Origin: Haliea sp.
GTDB lineage: Bacteria > Pseudomonadota > Gammaproteobacteria > Pseudomonadales > Halieaceae
Assembly (NCBI GenBank): GCA_024642245.1
Contig: JAHEBM010000011.1
Coordinates: 1 to 64,000 of the forward strand
DNA: 64,000 nt
Direction of reading: 5' to 3'
Within the stretch, counting starts at the first letter, position 1. Each line of letters begins with the position of its first letter. Below, piece by piece: positions 10,504 through 27,993 of this stretch. The translations under genes were made by a program, and so were the position numbers. The notes under the pieces were generated by a model, which ran no database searches, was not told where the DNA came from, and saw nothing but the letters and a program-made list of their open reading frames with translations.

Positions 10504-11490
10504 ATGCGACTGATGCTCGCCCCGATGGAGGGCGTAATCGACCACACCATGCGCGAGCTGCTCACTTCCCTGGGCGGTGTGGACCGCTGCGTCACCGAGT
10601 TCGTGCGGGTCACCGACAGGCTGCTGCCGCCAAAGGTATTCCATCGACTGTGCCCCGAACTGGCCAGCGGGGGCAGGACATCCTCCGGCGTTCCCGTATA
10701 CCTGCAATTGCTCGGGGGCCAGGCCAGTGTACTGGCTGAAAACGCCGCCCGCGCAGCGGAACTGGGCGCCCCGGGTATCGACCTCAATTTCGGCTGCCCG
10801 GCGAAAACCGTGAACCGCTCCGACGGCGGTTCCGTCATCCTGCGCGAGCCTGGGCGGGTGCACGCCATCACCGCCGCCGTGCGCGCCGCTGTACCGGCAC
10901 ACATACCCGTGACAGTGAAGACGCGACTCGGCTACGAAGACCAGAGCCTGTTCCTGGATATCGTCCGGGGCATCGACGCCGCGGGGGTGGACGAGCTCAC
11001 CGTGCACGCACGCACCAAGCGACACGGCTACCGGCCACCGGCCTACTGGGAGGAGATTGCCCGGGCCAGGGAAGTCACCCGCCTGCCGCTTATCGCCAAC
11101 GGCGAGATCTGGAACCCGGCCGACGCCATGCGCTGCCGCGAGATCACCGGCTGCAATGACCTGATGCTGGGTCGCGGCGCCCTGTGCCGGCCCGACCTGC
11201 CGCGACTGGTAGCGGGCGCCGCCACCGGCGACCACCCCGCGCCGCTGCGCTGGGAGCAGGTTCTGCCGCTGTTATCGCATTTTTTTGAACTGAACCTGGC
11301 GCACTACGACGCGTGCTTCGCACCCAACCCCCTGAAGCAGTGGCTCGTCTACCTGCGGGCCCACTATTTCCCCGCTGCGCTTTTGTTCGAGCAGGTGAAA
11401 CGCCTGCGGCAGCCGCGCGAGATACAACTGGCGCTACGGGCTGCTATTGCTGACGCGCGGCGCCCGGCACACTCCCCCGCGACAGCCTGA
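10504..11490 (+). CDS. dusC: tRNA-dihydrouridine(16) synthase
   Basis: FMN enzyme of 328 residues that reduces uridine in the D-loop of tRNA using NADPH. It begins MRLMLAPMEGVIDHTMRELL, has YLQLLGGQ, and the active-site loop NFGCPAKTVNRSDGG with Cys98 as the catalytic acid, then VTVKTRLGY, VHARTKRHGY and LPLIANGEIW. The DusC branch is chosen because of the APMEGV start and the position of the catalytic cysteine; DusA/DusB are less likely. Its stop is 6 bases from the stop of the convergent ThDP enzyme gene, with no terminator visible between. Confidence 0.92.
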   Translation: MRLMLAPMEGVIDHTMRELLTSLGGVDRCVTEFVRVTDRLLPPKVFHRLCPELASGGRTSSGVPVYLQLLGGQASVLAENAARAAELGAPGIDLNFGCPAKTVNRSDGGSVILREPGRVHAITAAVRAAVPAHIPVTVKTRLGYEDQSLFLDIVRGIDAAGVDELTVHARTKRHGYRPPAYWEEIARAREVTRLPLIANGEIWNPADAMRCREITGCNDLMLGRGALCRPDLPRLVAGAATGDHPAPLRWEQVLPLLSHFFELNLAHYDACFAPNPLKQWLVYLRAHYFPAALLFEQVKRLRQPREIQLALRAAIADARRPAHSPATA

Positions 11491-16190: not shown

Positions 16191-17167
16191 CAGCTGAGCC
16201 GCACCCTGGGATCAGCCCAGGTATAGGAAATGTCCGTGAGGATAAGGCCTAGGATGTAAAGAATCGAACCGATGAAAACCATGCTGCGCACAATCGCGAA
16301 ATCCTGCGAGCGTATGGCGTCCAGCATATAACTACCCAGCCCGGGAATACCGAAAAAGGACTCGATCAGCAGGCTGCCCATAAACAGCGAGGGAATCAGT
16401 ACCACGATACCGGTGAGAATGGGAATGAGCGCATTGGGAAGGATATGCCGGAACAAAATACTGATTTCGCTCGCACCCTTTGCCCGGGCGGTGCGCACGT
16501 AATCCTGGCCCGCTTCCTCCAGGAACAGCGTACGGTACCAGCGGGCCCCGGAACCGATTCCCGATACCACGCTCACCAGCACCGGCAGAATCAGGAACTT
16601 CCACGGCTGGAAATCCGGGTCGAATCCGGAGATCGGCACCAGCATCCACTGCTTGGCCACCAGGTACTGGCCGCCGATGATATAGAACAGGTAGGAAATG
16701 GACATCAGGGACACGAAGACGAAGACGGCCCAGCGATCCAGCGCGGTGGCGCGAAACATGACCACCATCAGTGCCACGCAGATATTGACGCATATACCCA
16801 CGGCGAAACTGGGAAGCGCCACCGCCAGGCTGGGCCACATACGGGTGGATACGTCCGTGGTGATATCGCGACCACTCTCGGAGCGACCGAAATCAAATGC
16901 AAACAGCTTGAGTGACTTGGCAAAGAAAATGGTGTCAGTCAGTGCACCCAGGCCGCTGCTGCCGTCATTGAGGAACAGGGGTTTGTCGTAACCGTTTTTC
17001 TGTTTCCAGTTCGCAATGGCCGCCGGCGTCACGTACTTTTCACCCAGCTGGGACCTGGCCATGTCATCCGGGGAGTTCACCACGAAAAACAGGGTGAAGG
17101 TGAGCAGGTTCACCCCGATGAGAATGGGAATGGCGTACAGCAGCCTGCGGATAATATAGGCAAACAT
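16190..17167 (-). CDS. oligopeptide ABC transporter permease (DppB/YejB type)
   Basis: Inner-membrane permease of 325 residues. It opens MFAYIIRRLLYAIPILIGVNLL, the standard first helix of DppB-type permeases, and carries the binding-protein-dependent transport segment with coupling helix YVRTARAKGASEISILFRHILPNA. The loop between helices 1 and 2 (about 30-120) is periplasmic and contains the YDKPLF segment found in the family. Its ATG overlaps the stop of the substrate-binding protein gene by one base (TAATG) and its stop overlaps the next permease by one base, so the operon is tightly coupled. Confidence 0.93.
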   Translation of the reverse strand: MFAYIIRRLLYAIPILIGVNLLTFTLFFVVNSPDDMARSQLGEKYVTPAAIANWKQKNGYDKPLFLNDGSSGLGALTDTIFFAKSLKLFAFDFGRSESGRDITTDVSTRMWPSLAVALPSFAVGICVNICVALMVVMFRATALDRWAVFVFVSLMSISYLFYIIGGQYLVAKQWMLVPISGFDPDFQPWKFLILPVLVSVVSGIGSGARWYRTLFLEEAGQDYVRTARAKGASEISILFRHILPNALIPILTGIVVLIPSLFMGSLLIESFFGIPGLGSYMLDAIRSQDFAIVRSMVFIGSILYILGLILTDISYTWADPRVRLS

Positions 17168-19374
17168 TATAAGTCCCCTGCCTTGCGGGCCGTCGCTTTC
17201 TGGCGACGCCGGTAAGCGATAATCCCCGGCGCCAGCAAGCCGATCACCACCAGGGCACCGGCATACAGTGGCCAGGTCACGGGTTGGTTCCAGGCTTTTT
17301 GTTTCAGTTCCCGTTCTTCGGCGTCGATCCCGGTGTACATCAGGGTGGCCTTGGAGACGCCGTGGCGTTTGTTGTTATACACCCAGCTGTTGTTCAGGTA
17401 GATATCCTTGGGATAGTAGGCGAAAAGCCACACGGCATCCTTGCGGTACTCCTCCACAGCCAGCGCCACCAGCTTGTCCCGTTCGGGCCCAGGGGCCAGC
17501 ACGCGGATCTTGCGAAACGCGTCATCATACACATCGCTGGCGTAGTTGCTGTTGTTGGCGCCGTCGCATTTGCAGTCCAGCGGGCTCTCCGGGCCGTACA
17601 ACAGAAACAGGAAATTTTCCGGATCGGGATAGTCCGCGAGCCAGCCGTGGGAGAATACCTGGGTATTACCGGTCAGCAGTTTTTCCCGGGTGCGATTCCA
17701 GTCCGCCGGGCGGTATTCCACCTGGACCCCGATTTCGCCGAACACCCGGTCCATCCAGTTCATCATAGTGTTGCTGATGGCCTGGGACTGCACGTCGATG
17801 AAGATTTTCAGCGGTTCACCGGTGCGCGCATCCCGGCCACCGGGATAGCCGGCCTCCGCCAGCAACTGGCGGGCATAATCCAGGGACTTGCGCTTCGGCT
17901 CCCCGTCCACCCAGTCGTACACATAGGGGTTGATGCCCGCCTCGCCCTCGAGGAAGCCGGGGATGCCCGGTGGAATCGGCGTGTGCGACGCGATGCCGTT
18001 ACCCTTGTAAAAAATATTCAGGTATTCCTCGGTATTGAAGGCAATCTGCAGGGCCTGGCGCAGCTTGCGCCTGTCCTCGGTATAGCCACCAATAACGGGG
18101 TCGCGCATATTGAAGCCGTAGTAGTAGATGGCGGGCTTCACATCCGGTGACATGCTGATGTTATGGTCTTCCAGTTCCGTCGACATCTCCACCCCGTCGG
18201 GGCCGACCACGAAGGCCTGGTCGTATACACCATTGGTATTTCCGTGCACCTCGCCGGAGCGATCGTAATAGCCCTGCAGGAACTTGGTCCACAGCGGCAG
18301 CACTTCTTTCTCCAGACGGAACACGGCGCGATCAATAAAGGGAATCCTCTTGCCCGCATCATCCAACAGCCCCGCTTCCCGGTCGCCGGGCTCGCCCTCC
18401 GAGGGATAGAACTCCTCACGGAAGTTGGGATTACGCTCCAGCACGATTTCGCTGTTGGGGTCATTTTTCACCATCATGAACGGGCCGGAACCGACCGGCC
18501 ACCAGTCGAGGGTGAGGTTGCGCTGCGCAAAACCGGGATTGTGGTAGAAGCGGTCGACCTCCGGGGCGATGGGCGAGAAGAAATGCATGGCCAGCCAGTA
18601 GAGGAACTGGGGGTAGCGACCCTTGATGGTAATGGTGAAGGTGCGCTCATCCAGCACCGCAAGCCCGGCCATCGGGTAGTCATCCAGGTTCAGCCAGTCG
18701 GTGCGTGGCAGCGTGCCCAACTGCTCGGAAAACTCCGTCATCCCGACGATGTAGTGGGACATGAAGCCCAGCATGGGTGAGCCGATTGCCGGGTTGGCCA
18801 GGCGTTTGATGGCGTAGACAAAATCGTTGGCACGTACTGGCCTGCTGCCGGTTTCCGGAAAGTCCGGTATCTGCTGGTACCGACTTCCCTCGTCGGCGGT
18901 GGCAAACAGGTAGCGGGGTTTGCCGGCCGCGTCCAGGGCAAAGGCGGGGTGGGGCTGGTAGCGCTCATTGGGCCGCACGTGCAGGGTGTAACGGCTGAAT
19001 GCCAGGGCCTCATCGTCCTCGGCCACCTCGTTACCCTGCTCATCCAGGAAAACCAGTTCGGGAAAAGCCGCTATGGACAGCGGTATCAGCTCGTAGGGGC
19101 GCTTGAGAAAGTGGTAGCCCATCGGGGGCTCATAAATCTGGTCGATGAACAGGCTTTCATCCGAGGCATAGGAGGTTGCCGGGTCCAGGTGCTTGGGCGG
19201 CAATGGGCTCATCACCGACTGGTAGGTCAGCAAATTATCATCGTACTGTGGGTTGGGATCGTTCCAGGGCGGCCCACCGCAGCCCGCCAACAGGCTGCCC
19301 AGCAAGACCAGTACCCCGGAGAGGGCGGCAGCAGACATTCTTATTTTTATAAAATCTATTTTCCCTTTTGGCAC
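17167..19374 (-). CDS. oligopeptide ABC transporter substrate-binding lipoprotein with C-terminal membrane helix
   Basis: Solute-binding protein of 735 residues from the SBP_bac_5 peptide/nickel family, the periplasmic receptor of the ABC transporter. The signal peptide ends in the lipobox LLAGC, so the mature protein is a lipoprotein. The binding domain includes FVYAIKRLANPAIGSPM and GPFMMVKNDPNSEIVLERNPNF. At the C-terminus a hydrophobic helix (WPLYAGALVVIGLLAPGIIA) and a basic tail (YRRRQKATARK) form a second membrane anchor, not part of standard family members. I start at a GTG at 19374 with CAGGAG 10 bases upstream; an ATG at 19338 without a good ribosome site is the alternative. First gene of the operon. 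Confidence 0.92.
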   Translation of the reverse strand: MPKGKIDFIKIRMSAAALSGVLVLLGSLLAGCGGPPWNDPNPQYDDNLLTYQSVMSPLPPKHLDPATSYASDESLFIDQIYEPPMGYHFLKRPYELIPLSIAAFPELVFLDEQGNEVAEDDEALAFSRYTLHVRPNERYQPHPAFALDAAGKPRYLFATADEGSRYQQIPDFPETGSRPVRANDFVYAIKRLANPAIGSPMLGFMSHYIVGMTEFSEQLGTLPRTDWLNLDDYPMAGLAVLDERTFTITIKGRYPQFLYWLAMHFFSPIAPEVDRFYHNPGFAQRNLTLDWWPVGSGPFMMVKNDPNSEIVLERNPNFREEFYPSEGEPGDREAGLLDDAGKRIPFIDRAVFRLEKEVLPLWTKFLQGYYDRSGEVHGNTNGVYDQAFVVGPDGVEMSTELEDHNISMSPDVKPAIYYYGFNMRDPVIGGYTEDRRKLRQALQIAFNTEEYLNIFYKGNGIASHTPIPPGIPGFLEGEAGINPYVYDWVDGEPKRKSLDYARQLLAEAGYPGGRDARTGEPLKIFIDVQSQAISNTMMNWMDRVFGEIGVQVEYRPADWNRTREKLLTGNTQVFSHGWLADYPDPENFLFLLYGPESPLDCKCDGANNSNYASDVYDDAFRKIRVLAPGPERDKLVALAVEEYRKDAVWLFAYYPKDIYLNNSWVYNNKRHGVSKATLMYTGIDAEERELKQKAWNQPVTWPLYAGALVVIGLLAPGIIAYRRRQKATARKAGDL

Positions 19375-19482
19375 AGTGCCAGAGCTCCTGTTGCGAGCGC
19401 GCAAGGATACATTGCACTCCCTGCCAGAACCAGTACCACATTGGTGTTATCTGCGCAGCCGGAGGTAAATTGCGGCAACACG

Positions 19483-22346: not shown

Positions 22347-22423
22347 GTACAATGGAAAATGACCGCGGAAACCCGTACATTCACGTAGAACAATAATCGT
22401 CAGCAGGGGCAGCAAAAGCTGGA

Positions 22424-25400
22424 GTGAACAGGTTTAACCTCACGTTCAGGGGCGAAATTCTTGAGGGCCACGATCCGGCGCAGGTGCAAACCCGCCTGGC
22501 ACAACTCCTGTCGATCGATGACCCGGCCCTGCTGAAACGGTGTTTTTCCGGTGACCCTGTGGTGCTGCGACGAAACCTGGAGCGCAAGGAAGCGGCAGCA
22601 TTGTATGCCCGGCTCAGGCAGCTGGGCATTCTTGCGGAACTGGTGAAAATAGGCGAACGGGGCGATCTGCACGCGGGTGAAGCCGTTGCGCCCCCGGGGA
22701 CCACCACCGGGGCAGGTACAACAGCACCGCCCGACAGCACTGCGCAGGCACCAGCACCAGTAGAGCCTGTCATCGCCGAAGCTCCGGGGGAACCAGCCGC
22801 AAACCCGGCTGAAACCGGGCAGAGCTGGGCGGCGGGTTCGCGCGCGAAGAACAGCGGGATCGACAAAGGCCCGGCGCAGGTAAGCAGCGAACAGGCACAG
22901 GAGGCGATACGGCGTGCGGACCTGGCAGCGGAGAAAGATCTGCTGGCGCAAAATGCGGCCGGGCTGAAAGCGCGGGAAAAAGCGCTGAAAAAAGCGCTTC
23001 GGTCCAAGCGCAAGGAAGAGGCAAAACGCAACAGGGCCAGCGAACGCGCGCGGGAAAAGACCCTCGCCCGGGAGGCGAATCACAAGGCCAGGCTGGAGGC
23101 GGCCAGGCTCAAGGCCGAAGTGGCGGAAGCGAAACGCGAGGCCGAGGCCCAGGCCCTGGAGAGCAAGGCACAACAGGAACGCGAGCAGGCAGAAGAGGCT
23201 GCCAGGCGAGAGGCCAAACTGGCGCTGGCTCGCGCGGAGGAAGCGGCCAGGGTAGCCGCGGCCCAGGCTGAACGCGAGCACCGGGAGGCACTGGAGCGGG
23301 AGCGCAGGGAAGCCGAGCGGGAGGAGCGGGACCGGCGTGAACAGGCTCGCCTGGCAGAACAGCAGCGCGTGGCCGCCGAGAAGGCGGCACAGCGGGAACG
23401 GGAAAAGCGCAGTGCCGAAGAAGCAACCGCCAGGCGGCAGGCAGCGGCAGCCCGGCGCAAACGCGAGCAGGCCGAGGCCAGCGTCCGCCGCAAGGCGGAG
23501 GAGGCCCGCAAGAAAGCCCGGGAGCTGGCCCGCCAGAAGGCGCAGGAAGAGGAGCAAGTGGCCCAGCGCCGGGCCATGGAAGAGCAGGCAATCCAGCGCG
23601 CCGCCATCGAACTGGCGCACAGTCCGACGCGCAAACCGCTGGGCGCCAGGGTCAGGACCCGGATGGAAATGCCGTCGAAGAAGCGCAGTTCCAGCGAGGA
23701 ACCGGGACAGCCGCGGCGCAAACGCCAGCCCGGTGCGCCCAATCTCTATAGCTTGCGCCCCTTCCGCAATACCCCGGAAATCCGCTCGCGGGCCGGGCAA
23801 TCACGGCGCAGCGCACGGCGGGCTTTCAACGCGGCGGCAATTGCGACCCTCGCCGCCATTGCGCTGGCCGCACGCGTGGCGACCCTGCCCACTACCGCTC
23901 CCATCAGTGGCGCTACCGCGCTTGCGGTCGCCCCCCAGGAGCGTCTCCTGCTGCTCGCGGGCGATCAACTGCTGCTCCACGACCGGGCTGGCGTCAGCGT
24001 CTCCAGCCAAAGCCTGGCAAGCTTCGGCGTGCTCAGCCTGCAATCGCCACTGGCTTTCGATGGCGACGGCAAACTCCTGGCTCCGGGCCAGCTTGCCACG
24101 ACGCAATCCGGTGCCGCCCAACTGCTGCGCTGTGACCTCGTGGAATCCGCCTGCGAGACCGTCTCCGAGACCCTTGCCGGTACCACGATCTCCGCGCTCG
24201 CGGTTCACCCCCTGGACGGCACCGTGTTTATCGCCGACAGCAGCACCGGCGAATTGCTCAAGGTGACCGCCGACGGCGTCCTCGTAGCCAGGGCCGCAGT
24301 CGACGTGCCCGAGCGTCCCGTACTTCGACTGGATTCCGGTCTACTGTTGATGAACAGCGCCCAGGGACCGGGCATCAGCGTATTCCGTTACGAGGACACG
24401 GCCTTCGGACAGCACCTGGACGAGATACTGTTACTGCCTGGTACGGCTGATGCCGCCGAATTCACGGGCGTACGGGATTTCATCTACAGCGGACAACACT
24501 GGTGGGTCGCACTGGACAGGACCGGGGATGGTGGTACCGGGCTGTATCGATTTGACGGGCAATGGCAGTTCGTCGACAGCCCGATCCTTGCAGCGCAAAC
24601 CCGGCCGTTACAACTGGTCGCCTGGGGATCCCGTATCCTGGTGGCAGACCCCGCGCAGATACCCATCGGGCGCTTCAACAGCGCAGGCGAGGCGGAAGCG
24701 CCCCTGGTCTCGAGCGCCCTGGTCGAGCTCGCCGGCGAACGCGCGCACTGGGCCAACCTGGCGCTGCTGGCCTGGCGCCTGGCCCTGGCGCTGTGTGTGC
24801 TGGCCGCGTTCACCGGTGTCGGCCTGGGCGCACTGCACCGGCTGCGCAGCCTGGTTTATACCTCATGCCATGAGCGCGGCGCCGCACCGGTGGACGAAGT
24901 GGCCGATGATATCGCATGGATCGACCTGGCCCCCGACCGCCTCGCCAGCCTCGGCAGGACTGCCGTCGCCTATGCGGTACTGGCAACAGGTCTGGTACTG
25001 GGCGCGATTGGGCTGGGTGCCTCCAGCCTGCAACTGTCAGCGCTGCTGCTGTTTCTGCTGGGTCCGGCCGCAGCCCTGCTTGTGCTGCAGCGCAGCGACC
25101 CGGGCCACATTGGTATCTGCGCGGACCAGTTGCTGCTGGTTGACCACGACGGTATATACCACCTCGGGGCCGGCAGCCGGATTCACCACCGGGGCCCTTT
25201 CCTGATGATCGATGACGTGACGGTCTTTACCGGGACAAAGTTGTTGCCCGCTTTTTCCCCGGGCCAGGTCGGGGAGCAGCTGGCACCGATGGCCGCCGGA
25301 GGTGTACGGGTGGATCGCAGGATAGTCACGGTCAAGCTCCTGCAAGGTCGTCACCCCCTCGCGCTGGGCGCGCTCGCCATCCTCGCCGCCTGTGCCGGGA

Positions 25401-25435
25401 CTGTCGCACTGCTTTCGCTGCAGGGTATTTTCTAG
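22424..25435 (+). CDS. 1003-residue membrane protein: N-terminal small domain, long coiled coil, beta-rich periplasmic part, five helices
   Basis: Function unknown. Residues 1-78 form a compact domain (FRGEILEGHDPAQVQTRL, FSGDPVVL) that I have seen at the front of varied gammaproteobacterial membrane proteins (from memory). A Pro/Ala linker (85-150) leads to about 245 residues of Glu/Arg/Ala/Lys helix (155-400), then a basic linker. Helix one is near 466-484; residues 495-760 are strand-rich with short repeats (ALAVHPLDGTVFIADSSTGELLKV) resembling a beta-propeller such as NHL/PQQ-like. Further helices lie near 778-802, 846-866, 869-888 and 979-1000. By the positive-inside rule the coil is cytoplasmic and the propeller periplasmic. 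Start is GTG at 22424 with a poor ribosome site. TolA-like similarity is compositional only. Confidence 0.85.
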   Translation: MNRFNLTFRGEILEGHDPAQVQTRLAQLLSIDDPALLKRCFSGDPVVLRRNLERKEAAALYARLRQLGILAELVKIGERGDLHAGEAVAPPGTTTGAGTTAPPDSTAQAPAPVEPVIAEAPGEPAANPAETGQSWAAGSRAKNSGIDKGPAQVSSEQAQEAIRRADLAAEKDLLAQNAAGLKAREKALKKALRSKRKEEAKRNRASERAREKTLAREANHKARLEAARLKAEVAEAKREAEAQALESKAQQEREQAEEAARREAKLALARAEEAARVAAAQAEREHREALERERREAEREERDRREQARLAEQQRVAAEKAAQREREKRSAEEATARRQAAAARRKREQAEASVRRKAEEARKKARELARQKAQEEEQVAQRRAMEEQAIQRAAIELAHSPTRKPLGARVRTRMEMPSKKRSSSEEPGQPRRKRQPGAPNLYSLRPFRNTPEIRSRAGQSRRSARRAFNAAAIATLAAIALAARVATLPTTAPISGATALAVAPQERLLLLAGDQLLLHDRAGVSVSSQSLASFGVLSLQSPLAFDGDGKLLAPGQLATTQSGAAQLLRCDLVESACETVSETLAGTTISALAVHPLDGTVFIADSSTGELLKVTADGVLVARAAVDVPERPVLRLDSGLLLMNSAQGPGISVFRYEDTAFGQHLDEILLLPGTADAAEFTGVRDFIYSGQHWWVALDRTGDGGTGLYRFDGQWQFVDSPILAAQTRPLQLVAWGSRILVADPAQIPIGRFNSAGEAEAPLVSSALVELAGERAHWANLALLAWRLALALCVLAAFTGVGLGALHRLRSLVYTSCHERGAAPVDEVADDIAWIDLAPDRLASLGRTAVAYAVLATGLVLGAIGLGASSLQLSALLLFLLGPAAALLVLQRSDPGHIGICADQLLLVDHDGIYHLGAGSRIHHRGPFLMIDDVTVFTGTKLLPAFSPGQVGEQLAPMAAGGVRVDRRIVTVKLLQGRHPLALGALAILAACAGTVALLSLQGIF

Positions 25436-25529
25436 GGTCGTTGCGGGACGGGGCGACAGGCCTTCCCTGTATTCGATATACTGTCGCGCATAACAGCAGC
25501 GATCACACTAACCCCGGACGACGGTTTCA

Positions 25530-26321
25530 ATGACCAGCACCCCAACAGACCAGTCGAGCCCGCCCCCGGCATTGAAGGTCGCGCTGTTTATCACCTGCCT
25601 GGCCGACCTGTTTCGCCCCTCTGTAGCCTTCGCCAGCATCAAACTGCTGGAACAGGCCGGTTGCGAGGTGACCATCCCGCTGAAGCAGACCTGCTGCGGC
25701 CAGCCGGCCTACAACACGGGCGACTTTGAATCCTCCGCCCCGCTGGCGCGACAGCTGATACAACAGTTTGAGTACGCCGATTACGTGGTAGTGCCATCAG
25801 GTTCCTGCGCCGGCATGATCTGTCACCATTACCCCCGGCTGCTCGCCGGCGAGTGGCGCGAGCGCGCCCTGCAACTGGCGGCGAAAACCTTCGAGCTCAC
25901 CACCTTCCTGAACGATATCGCCCGCATCAGGCGCGGCGACCGGCCCGCGGTGGCGCTGCCCACCGTGACCTACCACGACAGCTGCGCCGGCCTGCGTGAG
26001 CTGGGCGTAAAAGCCCAGCCACGCGCCCTGCTCAAAGAACTGTGCGACAGGGAGGTCAGCGAACTCCAGCAGTCCGAGGTCTGCTGCGGGTTCGGCGGTA
26101 CCTTCTGCGCCAAGATGCCGGAAATATCCGGCAAGATGGTCGGCGACAAACTGGCCAACGCGGTAGCCACCAAGGCCCGGATCCTCGCCGGGGGCGACCT
26201 GGGATGCCTGCTCAATATCGCCGGTCGGGCAAAACGCAGCGGCGAGGACATAGAGGTCCGCCACATCGCCGAACTGCTGGTCGGTGACCTCGACAGCCCC
26301 GCCATCGGGCAGGGCAAGTAG
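25530..26321 (+). CDS. lutA: lactate utilisation protein A, Fe-S oxidoreductase subunit
   Basis: Protein of 263 residues of the CCG family. Two cysteine-rich CCG motifs are present, LKQTCCGQPAYN and EVCCGFGGTF, as in the heterodisulfide-reductase/GlpC C-terminal domain that binds Fe-S clusters. LutA (E. coli YkgE) works with LutB and LutC to oxidise L-lactate to pyruvate in the cytoplasm. It begins about 20 residues before the first strand VALFITCLADLF. A TATACT hexamer at 25477-25482 could be its -10, but no -35 is clear. It is followed after one base by lutB. No lactate permease gene is in the window. Confidence 0.93.
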   Translation: MTSTPTDQSSPPPALKVALFITCLADLFRPSVAFASIKLLEQAGCEVTIPLKQTCCGQPAYNTGDFESSAPLARQLIQQFEYADYVVVPSGSCAGMICHHYPRLLAGEWRERALQLAAKTFELTTFLNDIARIRRGDRPAVALPTVTYHDSCAGLRELGVKAQPRALLKELCDREVSELQQSEVCCGFGGTFCAKMPEISGKMVGDKLANAVATKARILAGGDLGCLLNIAGRAKRSGEDIEVRHIAELLVGDLDSPAIGQGK

Positions 26322-26322
26322 A

Positions 26323-27993
26323 TTGAAACAGACCAGCCACACTTTCCTGGACAATGCCCACACGGCACTGCAGGACCGCGACAAGGCCGCGCGCCGCGAC
26401 TTCATGGCGCTGTTCACGCCGCTGATACGCAACGCGGCCATGGACGATTTCGGGCACTTCGAGGAACTGCGCCAGCATGTGAAGGAAGTGAGGCAACACA
26501 CCCTCGATAACCTGGATCACTATCTCACCCGCTTCGAGCGGGAAGCACTGCACAACGGCAACCATGTGCATTTCGCCACCGACGCCGACCAGCTCAACAG
26601 CATCGTGCTGGACATCTGCCAACAGCACAGCGCCCGGCGCATCGCCAAGGGTAAATCGATGGTGACCGAAGAGACCGGTCTCAACGACTACCTCAAAAGG
26701 GCCGGCCTGCGGGTGATGGAGACCGACCTGGGTGAGTACATCATTCAACAGGCCGGCGAGACCCCCAGCCACATCGTCGGGCCGGCACTGCATAAATCCG
26801 CCGCCGAGATCCGGGAGTTGTTCCTGGCGAAGCACGATCTGGGTGAACGCGAGCTTGCCGAAACCTCCGACATGGTGGGCGAGGCGCGCAAGGTCCTGCG
26901 TGAGCATTTCCTCAAGGCGGAAGTCGGTGTAATCGGGGCCAATGCGCTGATTGCCGAGAACGGCTACAGCATGTTGGTCACCAACGAGGGCAACGGCGAC
27001 CTGTGCGCCAACCTGCCGAATGTGCTGATTGTCTGCACCACGATTGACCGGGTGGTGCCCCGGGCCCGGGACGCCACCGCCATGCTGCGGTTGCTGGTGC
27101 GCTCTGCCACCGGGCAGCCCCAGACCTGCTACACCAGTTTTTATTCCGGTCCCCGGCGGGAACAGGACAGCGATGGCCCCCTGGAGACCCACTTCGTGTT
27201 GCTGGACAACCGGCGCACCGAGATACTGGCCAGTGATTACCGCGAGATGCTGCAGTGCATCCGCTGCGGAGCCTGTCTCAACCACTGCCCGATCTATGCC
27301 GCGACCGGGGGTCATGCCTACGGCTGGGTGTACCCCGGCCCGATGGGCTCGATCCTGACCCCGTTGCTGACATCACTGGAGCAAAGCAATGCCCTGCCCA
27401 ACGCCTGTACCAGTTGCGGGCGCTGCGCTGAAGTCTGCCCTGCCGACATCCCCCTGCCCGACCTGCTGCGGGACCTGCGTCACGACGAGAACCGGCAGAA
27501 GTTGTCGTCCTCCCGCTGGCGCCTGGGCATGCGGCTGCACGCATGGCTGGCCCGACACCCGGGTCTGTACCACGCCTGCACCGGAATAGGCATCGCGGCC
27601 CTGCACCTGCTGGGACAGCGCAAGGGCAGCTTTACCCAGCTGCCGATGGCGTCGGGCTGGACCAGTGAGCGCGACTTTCCGGCGCCCCAGGGTAAAACCT
27701 TCATGCACCAGTACGCGGCATTGCAGCGCGCCGACAAGGCCCGTGAAGACAAGAGCGCAGCGGTGGCGAAACCGCCCAGGCGACGGGCACGTCCCGGGTC
27801 GGGCAAGGCCAGCGGGGAACGCCAGGAGCCGGGCCTGCGGGCCGACTGGCCGCTGAAGCCGGACCCGCGCAGGCCGGGCAAAACCCGGCCCGGTACCGCC
27901 GGCGGCAAAGGGACCGGCAAGGGTAAACCCGGGGCGCATCCCGGCGGCCCCCGCGGCAAAAAACCCCGGTCGAGGCAAAGCGATGACCGATAG
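26323..27993 (+). CDS. lutB: lactate utilisation protein B with long basic C-terminal tail
   Basis: Iron-sulfur protein of 556 residues. The core matches LutB/YkgF: VTEETGLNDYLKRAG, ETDLGEYIIQ, GPRREQD, and two ferredoxin-type clusters, CIRCGACLNHCP and CTSCGRCAEVCP. I start at a TTG at 26323, one base after lutA, because LKQTSHTFLDNA lines up with the YkgF start; a GTG at 26284 would overlap lutA by 38 bases. Odd feature: residues 472-556 form a tail of Arg, Lys, Gly and Pro absent from YkgF, ending next to the lutC start. The last 11 bases overlap lutC. Confidence 0.92.
   Translation: MKQTSHTFLDNAHTALQDRDKAARRDFMALFTPLIRNAAMDDFGHFEELRQHVKEVRQHTLDNLDHYLTRFEREALHNGNHVHFATDADQLNSIVLDICQQHSARRIAKGKSMVTEETGLNDYLKRAGLRVMETDLGEYIIQQAGETPSHIVGPALHKSAAEIRELFLAKHDLGERELAETSDMVGEARKVLREHFLKAEVGVIGANALIAENGYSMLVTNEGNGDLCANLPNVLIVCTTIDRVVPRARDATAMLRLLVRSATGQPQTCYTSFYSGPRREQDSDGPLETHFVLLDNRRTEILASDYREMLQCIRCGACLNHCPIYAATGGHAYGWVYPGPMGSILTPLLTSLEQSNALPNACTSCGRCAEVCPADIPLPDLLRDLRHDENRQKLSSSRWRLGMRLHAWLARHPGLYHACTGIGIAALHLLGQRKGSFTQLPMASGWTSERDFPAPQGKTFMHQYAALQRADKAREDKSAAVAKPPRRRARPGSGKASGERQEPGLRADWPLKPDPRRPGKTRPGTAGGKGTGKGKPGAHPGGPRGKKPRSRQSDDR

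Follow-up and report, generated by a model that had tools for sequence, protein, structure and literature searches.

Within the window analysed here, a 64,000-nucleotide stretch of Haliea sp. DNA (assembly GCA_024642245.1, contig JAHEBM010000011.1), a gene at positions 22424–25435 encodes a conserved, uncharacterised protein in which an N-terminal domain resembling the C-terminal domain of ribosomal protein L7/L12 is joined through a linker to an NHL-type β-propeller set between membrane helices. We read this protein, tentatively and with a likelihood that we put a little below even, as a receptor or scaffold of the inner membrane that holds an L12-like adaptor on a leash in the cytoplasm. The N-domain and the propeller have known relatives, and none was found for a small β domain that follows the propeller or for the combination of modules. 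An earlier interpretation made without database searches (the sequence-only reading) had proposed the same 1003-residue frame and module order, and all of these modules were located in the sequence or in structural models. The parts on which the argument turns are:

22424–25435, plus strand: whole gene, 1003 residues, GTG start
22430–22645, plus strand: N-domain, residues 3–74, L7/L12 C-terminal-domain-like (profile match to L12 only)
22646–23737, plus strand: linker, residues 75–438
22883–23623, plus strand: Ala/Glu/Arg-rich segment, residues 154–400, possibly a single α-helix, as judged by composition
23789–23884, plus strand: membrane helix 1, residues 456–487, N side probably cytoplasmic (sequence and model)
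23918–24706, plus strand: NHL-type propeller, residues 499–761, read as six blades and probably periplasmic (24 strands; fold matches)
24131–24154, plus strand: Cys570 and Cys577, an invariant pair across a β-hairpin (alignments)

The frame is open over all 1003 codons from the GTG at 22424, and this first in-frame start lies exactly two residues ahead of the N-domain motif, as it does in 16 of the 27 relatives that bear the motif. Three of the 30 relatives are without it: two start at a contig end, and in the third (L048) none is found in frame. In agreement with the view that the whole matches no known system, searches of Pfam and NCBIfam (E up to 1) and of PHROGs (E up to 0.1) returned no family for the complete protein. 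Parts of the protein likewise gave nothing over cut-off in Pfam or NCBIfam, the nearest entry being ScyE on the C-terminal half (C-half; E 0.11, 12 bits versus 80). None of the PDB sequence hits was reliable, the best being a de novo protein at E 0.012, and neither a plasmid search with the protein nor a single-protein scan of genome contigs produced a match. A literature search of limited extent brought up no paper that describes this full domain arrangement or an L12-like domain carried by a membrane protein.

The first 78 residues had been proposed to form a shared gammaproteobacterial domain, and the N-domain was indeed found in 74 of the 115 genomes examined from the order. Its predicted order of elements is β-α-α-β-α-β (model predicted local distance difference test score, pLDDT, 86). 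In VIA structure comparisons the model matched chain 6gb2_BL, which we take to be mitochondrial L12 (Z 9.5), E. coli L7/L12 (1ctf, Z 9.1) and ClpS (9b1p, Z 9.3). Penicillin-binding proteins also appeared, with Z of about 7 and as the top Foldseek row, and were set aside as weak.

Sequence profiles separate L12 from ClpS where the fold ties. Compared with 17 L12 sequences from relatives (rows from 17 of 18 loci), the N-domain profile aligned over 68 columns with P 6.7e-6, whereas in the same comparison five pieces of the C-half gave P 0.65–0.84 and ClpS (rows from 16 of 17 loci) gave 0.69. The local profile score against L12 was 33.2 (P 1.8e-6, 44 columns), whereas 150 column shuffles averaged 9.6 and reached at most 19.3, and the reversed profile gave 8.7. 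The ClpS score, 11.2, fell inside its own shuffles (mean 9.8, maximum 15.8), and ClpS, which the fold suggests as a relative, was therefore rejected. The wide N-domain profile used here (A7) comprised the window protein, 10 family rows, a second N-domain protein of the same genome (L062) and 24 of 26 other loci; the L12 score was 32.4 without the family rows and 24.1 (P 2.3e-4) with the family rows only. Individual sequences did not reach the Pfam L12 cut-off (PF00542, 25.9 bits): the best, L124, scored 19.5, the window protein had no hit, and of seven other proteins with an N-domain three gave weak L12 hits, with E from 0.0013 to 0.18.

Outside the family, the best-scoring N-domain loci (n = 26) comprise 25 without a predicted membrane span, most of them with repeats in long low-complexity tails, and one DUF898 membrane protein; in the seven of these proteins that were scanned no Pfam or NCBIfam match over cut-off was found apart from the DUF898 part. 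Among them, the open frames of L118–L142 encode proteins of 159–303 residues in which the L12-like N-domain is followed mostly by repeats such as DTSHLS and APxG, and the five that were scanned gave no Pfam or NCBIfam match over cut-off. The second N-domain protein in the Haliea genome (L062:913-1713, minus strand) has 266 residues and a low-complexity tail, and its gene overlaps the frame of a membrane protein at 417–989 that is RDD-like by eye. An RDD protein was considered as a partner of the N-domain and rejected, as the neighbourhoods of the 26 other loci yielded nothing convincing (best E 1.5).

The linker keeps its existence and little else. Between the N-domain and the C-half lie 25–552 residues in the N-domain-bearing members, 364 in the window protein and no more than 70 in 12 of the 27 relatives; the range does not take in L034, L048 and L049, whose linkers were measured from the frame start. 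The sequence-only reading had described a 245-residue charged coil here. The charged segment stands (residues 154–400: Ala 27%, Glu 20%, Arg 18%), but the coil does not, nor is the length conserved. Hydrophobic periodicity of 3.5 residues was absent (z ≤ 0.5) from all 13 linkers with a Pro/Gly-free stretch of at least 70 residues, in which no heptads were found and large hydrophobics make up 2–12%; because it lacks this periodicity and has 10% large hydrophobics, the segment of the window protein is not coiled-coil-like. Its longest Pro/Gly-free stretch is 220 residues, in which base-to-acid i+4 pairs number 24 versus 13.3 in shuffles (z 4.1) and acid-to-base pairs 17 versus 13.6 (z 1.2). Across the 13 linkers, z exceeds 3 for base-to-acid pairs in nine and for acid-to-base pairs in six, and other linkers carry Glu-Pro, Lys-Pro or Ala-Pro runs. 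The linkers appear to be spacers rather than coiled coils, and they fit single α-helices better than coiled coils, less clearly so for the window protein itself.

The propeller was predicted with AlphaFold2 on 21 sequences of the C-half (window residue = model residue + 438), giving pLDDT 90.7, a predicted template modelling score of 0.67 and 24 strands read as six four-stranded blades, which bears out the earlier claim of a folded, propeller-like domain at residues 495–760. Of the 21 loci available for structure alignments, 20 were used in one and 18 in another. Foldseek matched it to the NHL domain of Brat (E 1.3e-8), and VIA to that of Mei-P26 (Z 22.0, root-mean-square deviation 3.0 over 244 residues), to PAL (3fvz, Z 20.7) and to the plant 'quenching protein' 7djl, presumably SOQ1 (Z 19.5). 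The Pfam NHL family (PF01436) is over cut-off in three of six distant relatives scanned (L102, L106, L151) and just under in two; it is over cut-off neither in the window protein nor among the families listed for 29 members of the family alignment (A2, built from 28 of 30 relatives; L058 and L059, cut by contig ends, were left out). Cys570 and Cys577 sit on neighbouring strands; all 29 family sequences and all 10 distant ones in the alignment have both, and no other residue is retained in all 39; the distant count covers 10 of 12 loci, one as its first piece only, with two partial loci left out. Trp832 is retained in 29 of 29 family sequences and in all eight distant sequences with a letter at that position.

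The rest of the membrane part consists of:

24713–24865, plus strand: 51-residue helix, stalk and membrane helix 2, residues 764–814 (sequence and model)
24938–25093, plus strand: membrane helices 3 and 4, residues 839–890
25106–25228, plus strand: small six-strand β domain, residues 895–935, probably cytoplasmic (model)
25259–25345, plus strand: two short helices after the β domain, residues 946–974 (model)
25355–25429, plus strand: membrane helix 5, residues 978–1002 (sequence and model)

All five membrane helices and the small β domain that the sequence-only reading had named are thus accounted for. Lys and Arg residues flanking helix 1 average 5.0 before and 0.5 after it (29 sequences), which fits the N-in topology and the cytoplasmic position already suggested for the long helix. 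Taken with the invariant Cys pair, this positive-inside pattern points to a periplasmic propeller and to a cytoplasmic N-domain, linker and β domain. Helices 3 and 4 are absent in L051, L053 and L055, and genera g10 and g27 have matches interrupted at this point; since such members are without both helices, the β domain, which the model places between helices 4 and 5, would stay on the same side. Considered as a possible bacterial PH-like domain, it has no Pfam match, and its best PDB sequence match has E 1.1.

The protein is common in its own family. As a single query, the C-half matched 31 of 58 genomes (own included), namely 31 of 37 from the Halieaceae and none of 21 from other families. 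The C-half profile matched 72 of 140 Halieaceae genomes in 25 of 28 genera; the named relatives belong to Haliea, Halioglobus, Seongchinamella, Pseudohalioglobus, Chromatocurvus and Parahaliea, all Halieaceae genera, and the three genera without a match are g4, g12 and g22, whose members among those listed have 1.3–3.6 Mb. Across the order the profile matched 15 of 244 genomes, six of these in other families, and across the class seven of 369, six besides the genome itself. The domain order recurs in the Halieaceae relatives, but the distant relatives, which keep the propeller and in most cases also further helices and the small β domain, are without N-domain and linker. We infer that the Halieaceae fused an L12-like domain, carried on a tether, with a membrane propeller of earlier origin. 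Two observations were made in passing at the distant loci: the propeller gene begins with a few bases that it shares with the gene for a 597-residue protein, membrane-like by eye and with no Pfam hit (L103:7435-9225, minus strand), and the propeller protein of G205 lies in two open frames (L107:5971-7480, minus strand) with a third fragment at 10794–10976 of the same stretch.

Combining these findings, we propose that the propeller would bind or scaffold a periplasmic ligand or partner and that the leashed L12-like domain would catch a soluble client in the cytoplasm and draw it to the membrane, in the way that ribosomal L12 picks up factors by means of a flexible arm. The leash would supply reach, not force, which would explain why the existence of the linker is kept while its length and chemistry are not. 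The comparison with L12 is meant as one of working mode, not of what may be bound. Of the signalling or force-coupling device suggested earlier, the signalling part thus survives as a possible receptor role.

Several points weigh against this proposal. (i) In the predicted fold L12 and ClpS tie, and fold alone cannot separate them; the top Foldseek rows of the N-domain are all weak (PBP3 E 0.015, L12 0.018, ClpS 0.024). (ii) Single-sequence Pfam scans give 17 weak families with one or two members each, L12 being found in one of 28 members (E 0.047) and MinC_N in the window protein (E 0.11). (iii) In the profile alignments the N-domain does not keep the KxVRxxTGLGLKEAK stretch through which L12 contacts GTPases, so that binding of translation GTPases is not implied. 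(iv) The N-domain is on the propeller protein in none of the 12 distant loci, five of which are partial or split, and the sole N-domain hit within them is a separate protein (L104); because L048 and these 12 relatives have no N-domain found, the core can act without the leash. (v) The client, the ligand and the output behind the receptor or adaptor role are hypothetical only.

A different role is suggested by the surroundings of the gene, which could be an accessory of lactate use (lutABC) or of peptide uptake acting with its neighbours; we regard this as unlikely. The gene is preceded by those for an oligopeptide symporter (TIGR00924) and a saccharopine-dehydrogenase-like protein (PF03435) and is followed by those for a CCG-domain protein (lutA by its position), lutB (TIGR00273, exactly at cut-off), a LUD-domain protein (lutC), a SYLF-like protein (below cut-off) and, on the opposite strand, ppc. 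The sequence-only reading had seen no partner adjacent, which holds largely but not entirely: among the 28 loci whose flank is long enough, lutA lies no more than 160 bases behind the gene, in the same direction, in 20, is 1.1 kb away in one and is absent from seven, and the upstream flank contains the symporter (at least 74% identity) in 20 of 30 loci, in one case at a distance of 7.5 kb. A survey of 36 family genomes found the gene together with lutB in 24, the gene alone in six, lutB alone in two (G008, and G003, where lutB begins at a contig end) and neither in four, a co-occurrence weakly above chance (Fisher p 0.04, relatedness ignored). On the other hand, lutB is not matched in six of the 30 carriers, and G008 shows the reverse case; gene order is conserved beyond lutABC, as far as the SYLF-like gene (17 of 30 loci) and ppc (15 of 30); and seven neighbour proteins tested had no match in the 12 distant loci (stretches of 6–14 kb). 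Two conserved elements also set the gene apart from lutABC:

22353–22381, plus strand: promoter-like element, TGGAA, 18-base spacer, −10 TACATT after CCG (conservation)
25477–25482, plus strand: −10-like TATACT between the gene and lutA (conservation)

Each was sought in 29 of 31 loci. The first pattern occurs within 200 bases 5′ of the gene in 10 of the 29; overall it has 12 matches in 1.09 million strand-bases of these loci, two of them elsewhere, a comparison that is biased because the pattern was drawn from the same loci, so that its rarity elsewhere is just supportive. In 18 of the 29, the 100 bases after the stop contain TATACT followed by G or C, against 0.005 expected per 100 bases. 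A general σ70 scan (2 found versus 1.8 expected) and a terminator scan (7 versus 7.3) were at chance, and both candidate promoters accordingly draw on conservation. With lutABC having its own conserved −10 and six carriers having no lutB, we dropped an operon with lutABC as the principal interpretation, and the gene is probably a unit of its own within a conserved neighbourhood. Two further observations concern the neighbours: LutB (26284–27993, 569 residues) matches TIGR00273 as far as residue 466 and beyond it has a basic low-complexity C-terminal tail, and a peptide-binding SBP_bac_5 protein with a likely C-terminal membrane helix (by eye) is encoded at 17167–19404, minus strand, divergent from the symporter gene.

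The Cys pair raises the prospect of a periplasmic redox or disulfide sensor, in which the pair would open and close and the membrane part report its state. We hold this to be quite improbable, even though the two cysteines are the only residues kept throughout, Trp832 is present in all 37 sequences with a letter there, and the 'quenching protein' 7djl is among the fold matches of the propeller. SOQ1 carries its NHL propeller beside a thioredoxin-like domain, according to PMC6107167; a Pfam scan finds no such domain in our protein, and a Cys pair across a hairpin may merely staple the fold. Equally doubtful is a membrane enzyme or transporter with the propeller as an assembly or catalytic platform: the protein has five spans and NHL-type folds include enzymes such as PAL, but helices 3 and 4 are absent in some members and, apart from the two Cys, no residue is kept in all 39 aligned sequences. 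More speculative still would be a membrane counterpart of the ribosomal stalk, whose L12-like domain, on a cytoplasmic leash that as a helix would span some tens of nanometres, would fish a GTPase or ribosome-linked factor to the inner membrane under the control of a periplasmic propeller sensor. Least probable is a coupler of force or motion across the envelope like TolA or TonB, whose domain II likewise swaps between charged-helix and Pro-rich forms and varies in length (PMC12204202), because of which linker variability alone does not exclude it, but here the linker comes ahead of helix 1, on its positive and predicted cytoplasmic side, and is often short, helix 1 lacks the SHLS motif described in that source, and a Pfam scan of 18 of 21 recurrent neighbour clusters found no motor protein (one representative each; two had no Pfam match).

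A leashed adaptor on a membrane receptor or scaffold remains the reading that we favour. A ribosomal-stalk-like domain would exist outside the ribosome in most sampled genomes of an order, and one family fuses it to a membrane propeller via a linker ranging over twenty-fold in length, which offers a natural series for asking what the leash does in a receptor. The core, a membrane NHL protein in which a Cys pair is invariant, is itself uncharacterised.

Among known systems, PknD, which has a single span, differs from the window protein in its kinase domain, of which Pfam (E up to 1) finds none here, whereas the window protein has four more spans and the small β domain. The likeness lies in an intracellular module combined, on a bacterial receptor, with an external six-bladed propeller of NHL repeats (PMC3322341 and PMC6107167). 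Plant SOQ1 likewise arranges a domain, a membrane helix and a propeller across a membrane (PMC6107167), but the Pfam scan finds neither its HAD nor its thioredoxin-like domain in the window protein. The single α-helix of INCENP, which is eukaryotic and binds microtubules, is similarly charged and is proposed to act as a 'flexible dog leash' (PMC4571873). The closest parallel to the N-domain, in both profile and predicted fold, is bL12, which also carries its domain on a mobile tether and is reported to hold EF-Tu ternary complexes near the ribosome (PMC5770553); in the protein described here the domain, shorn of the L12 signature stretch, stands at the N-terminus of a membrane protein.

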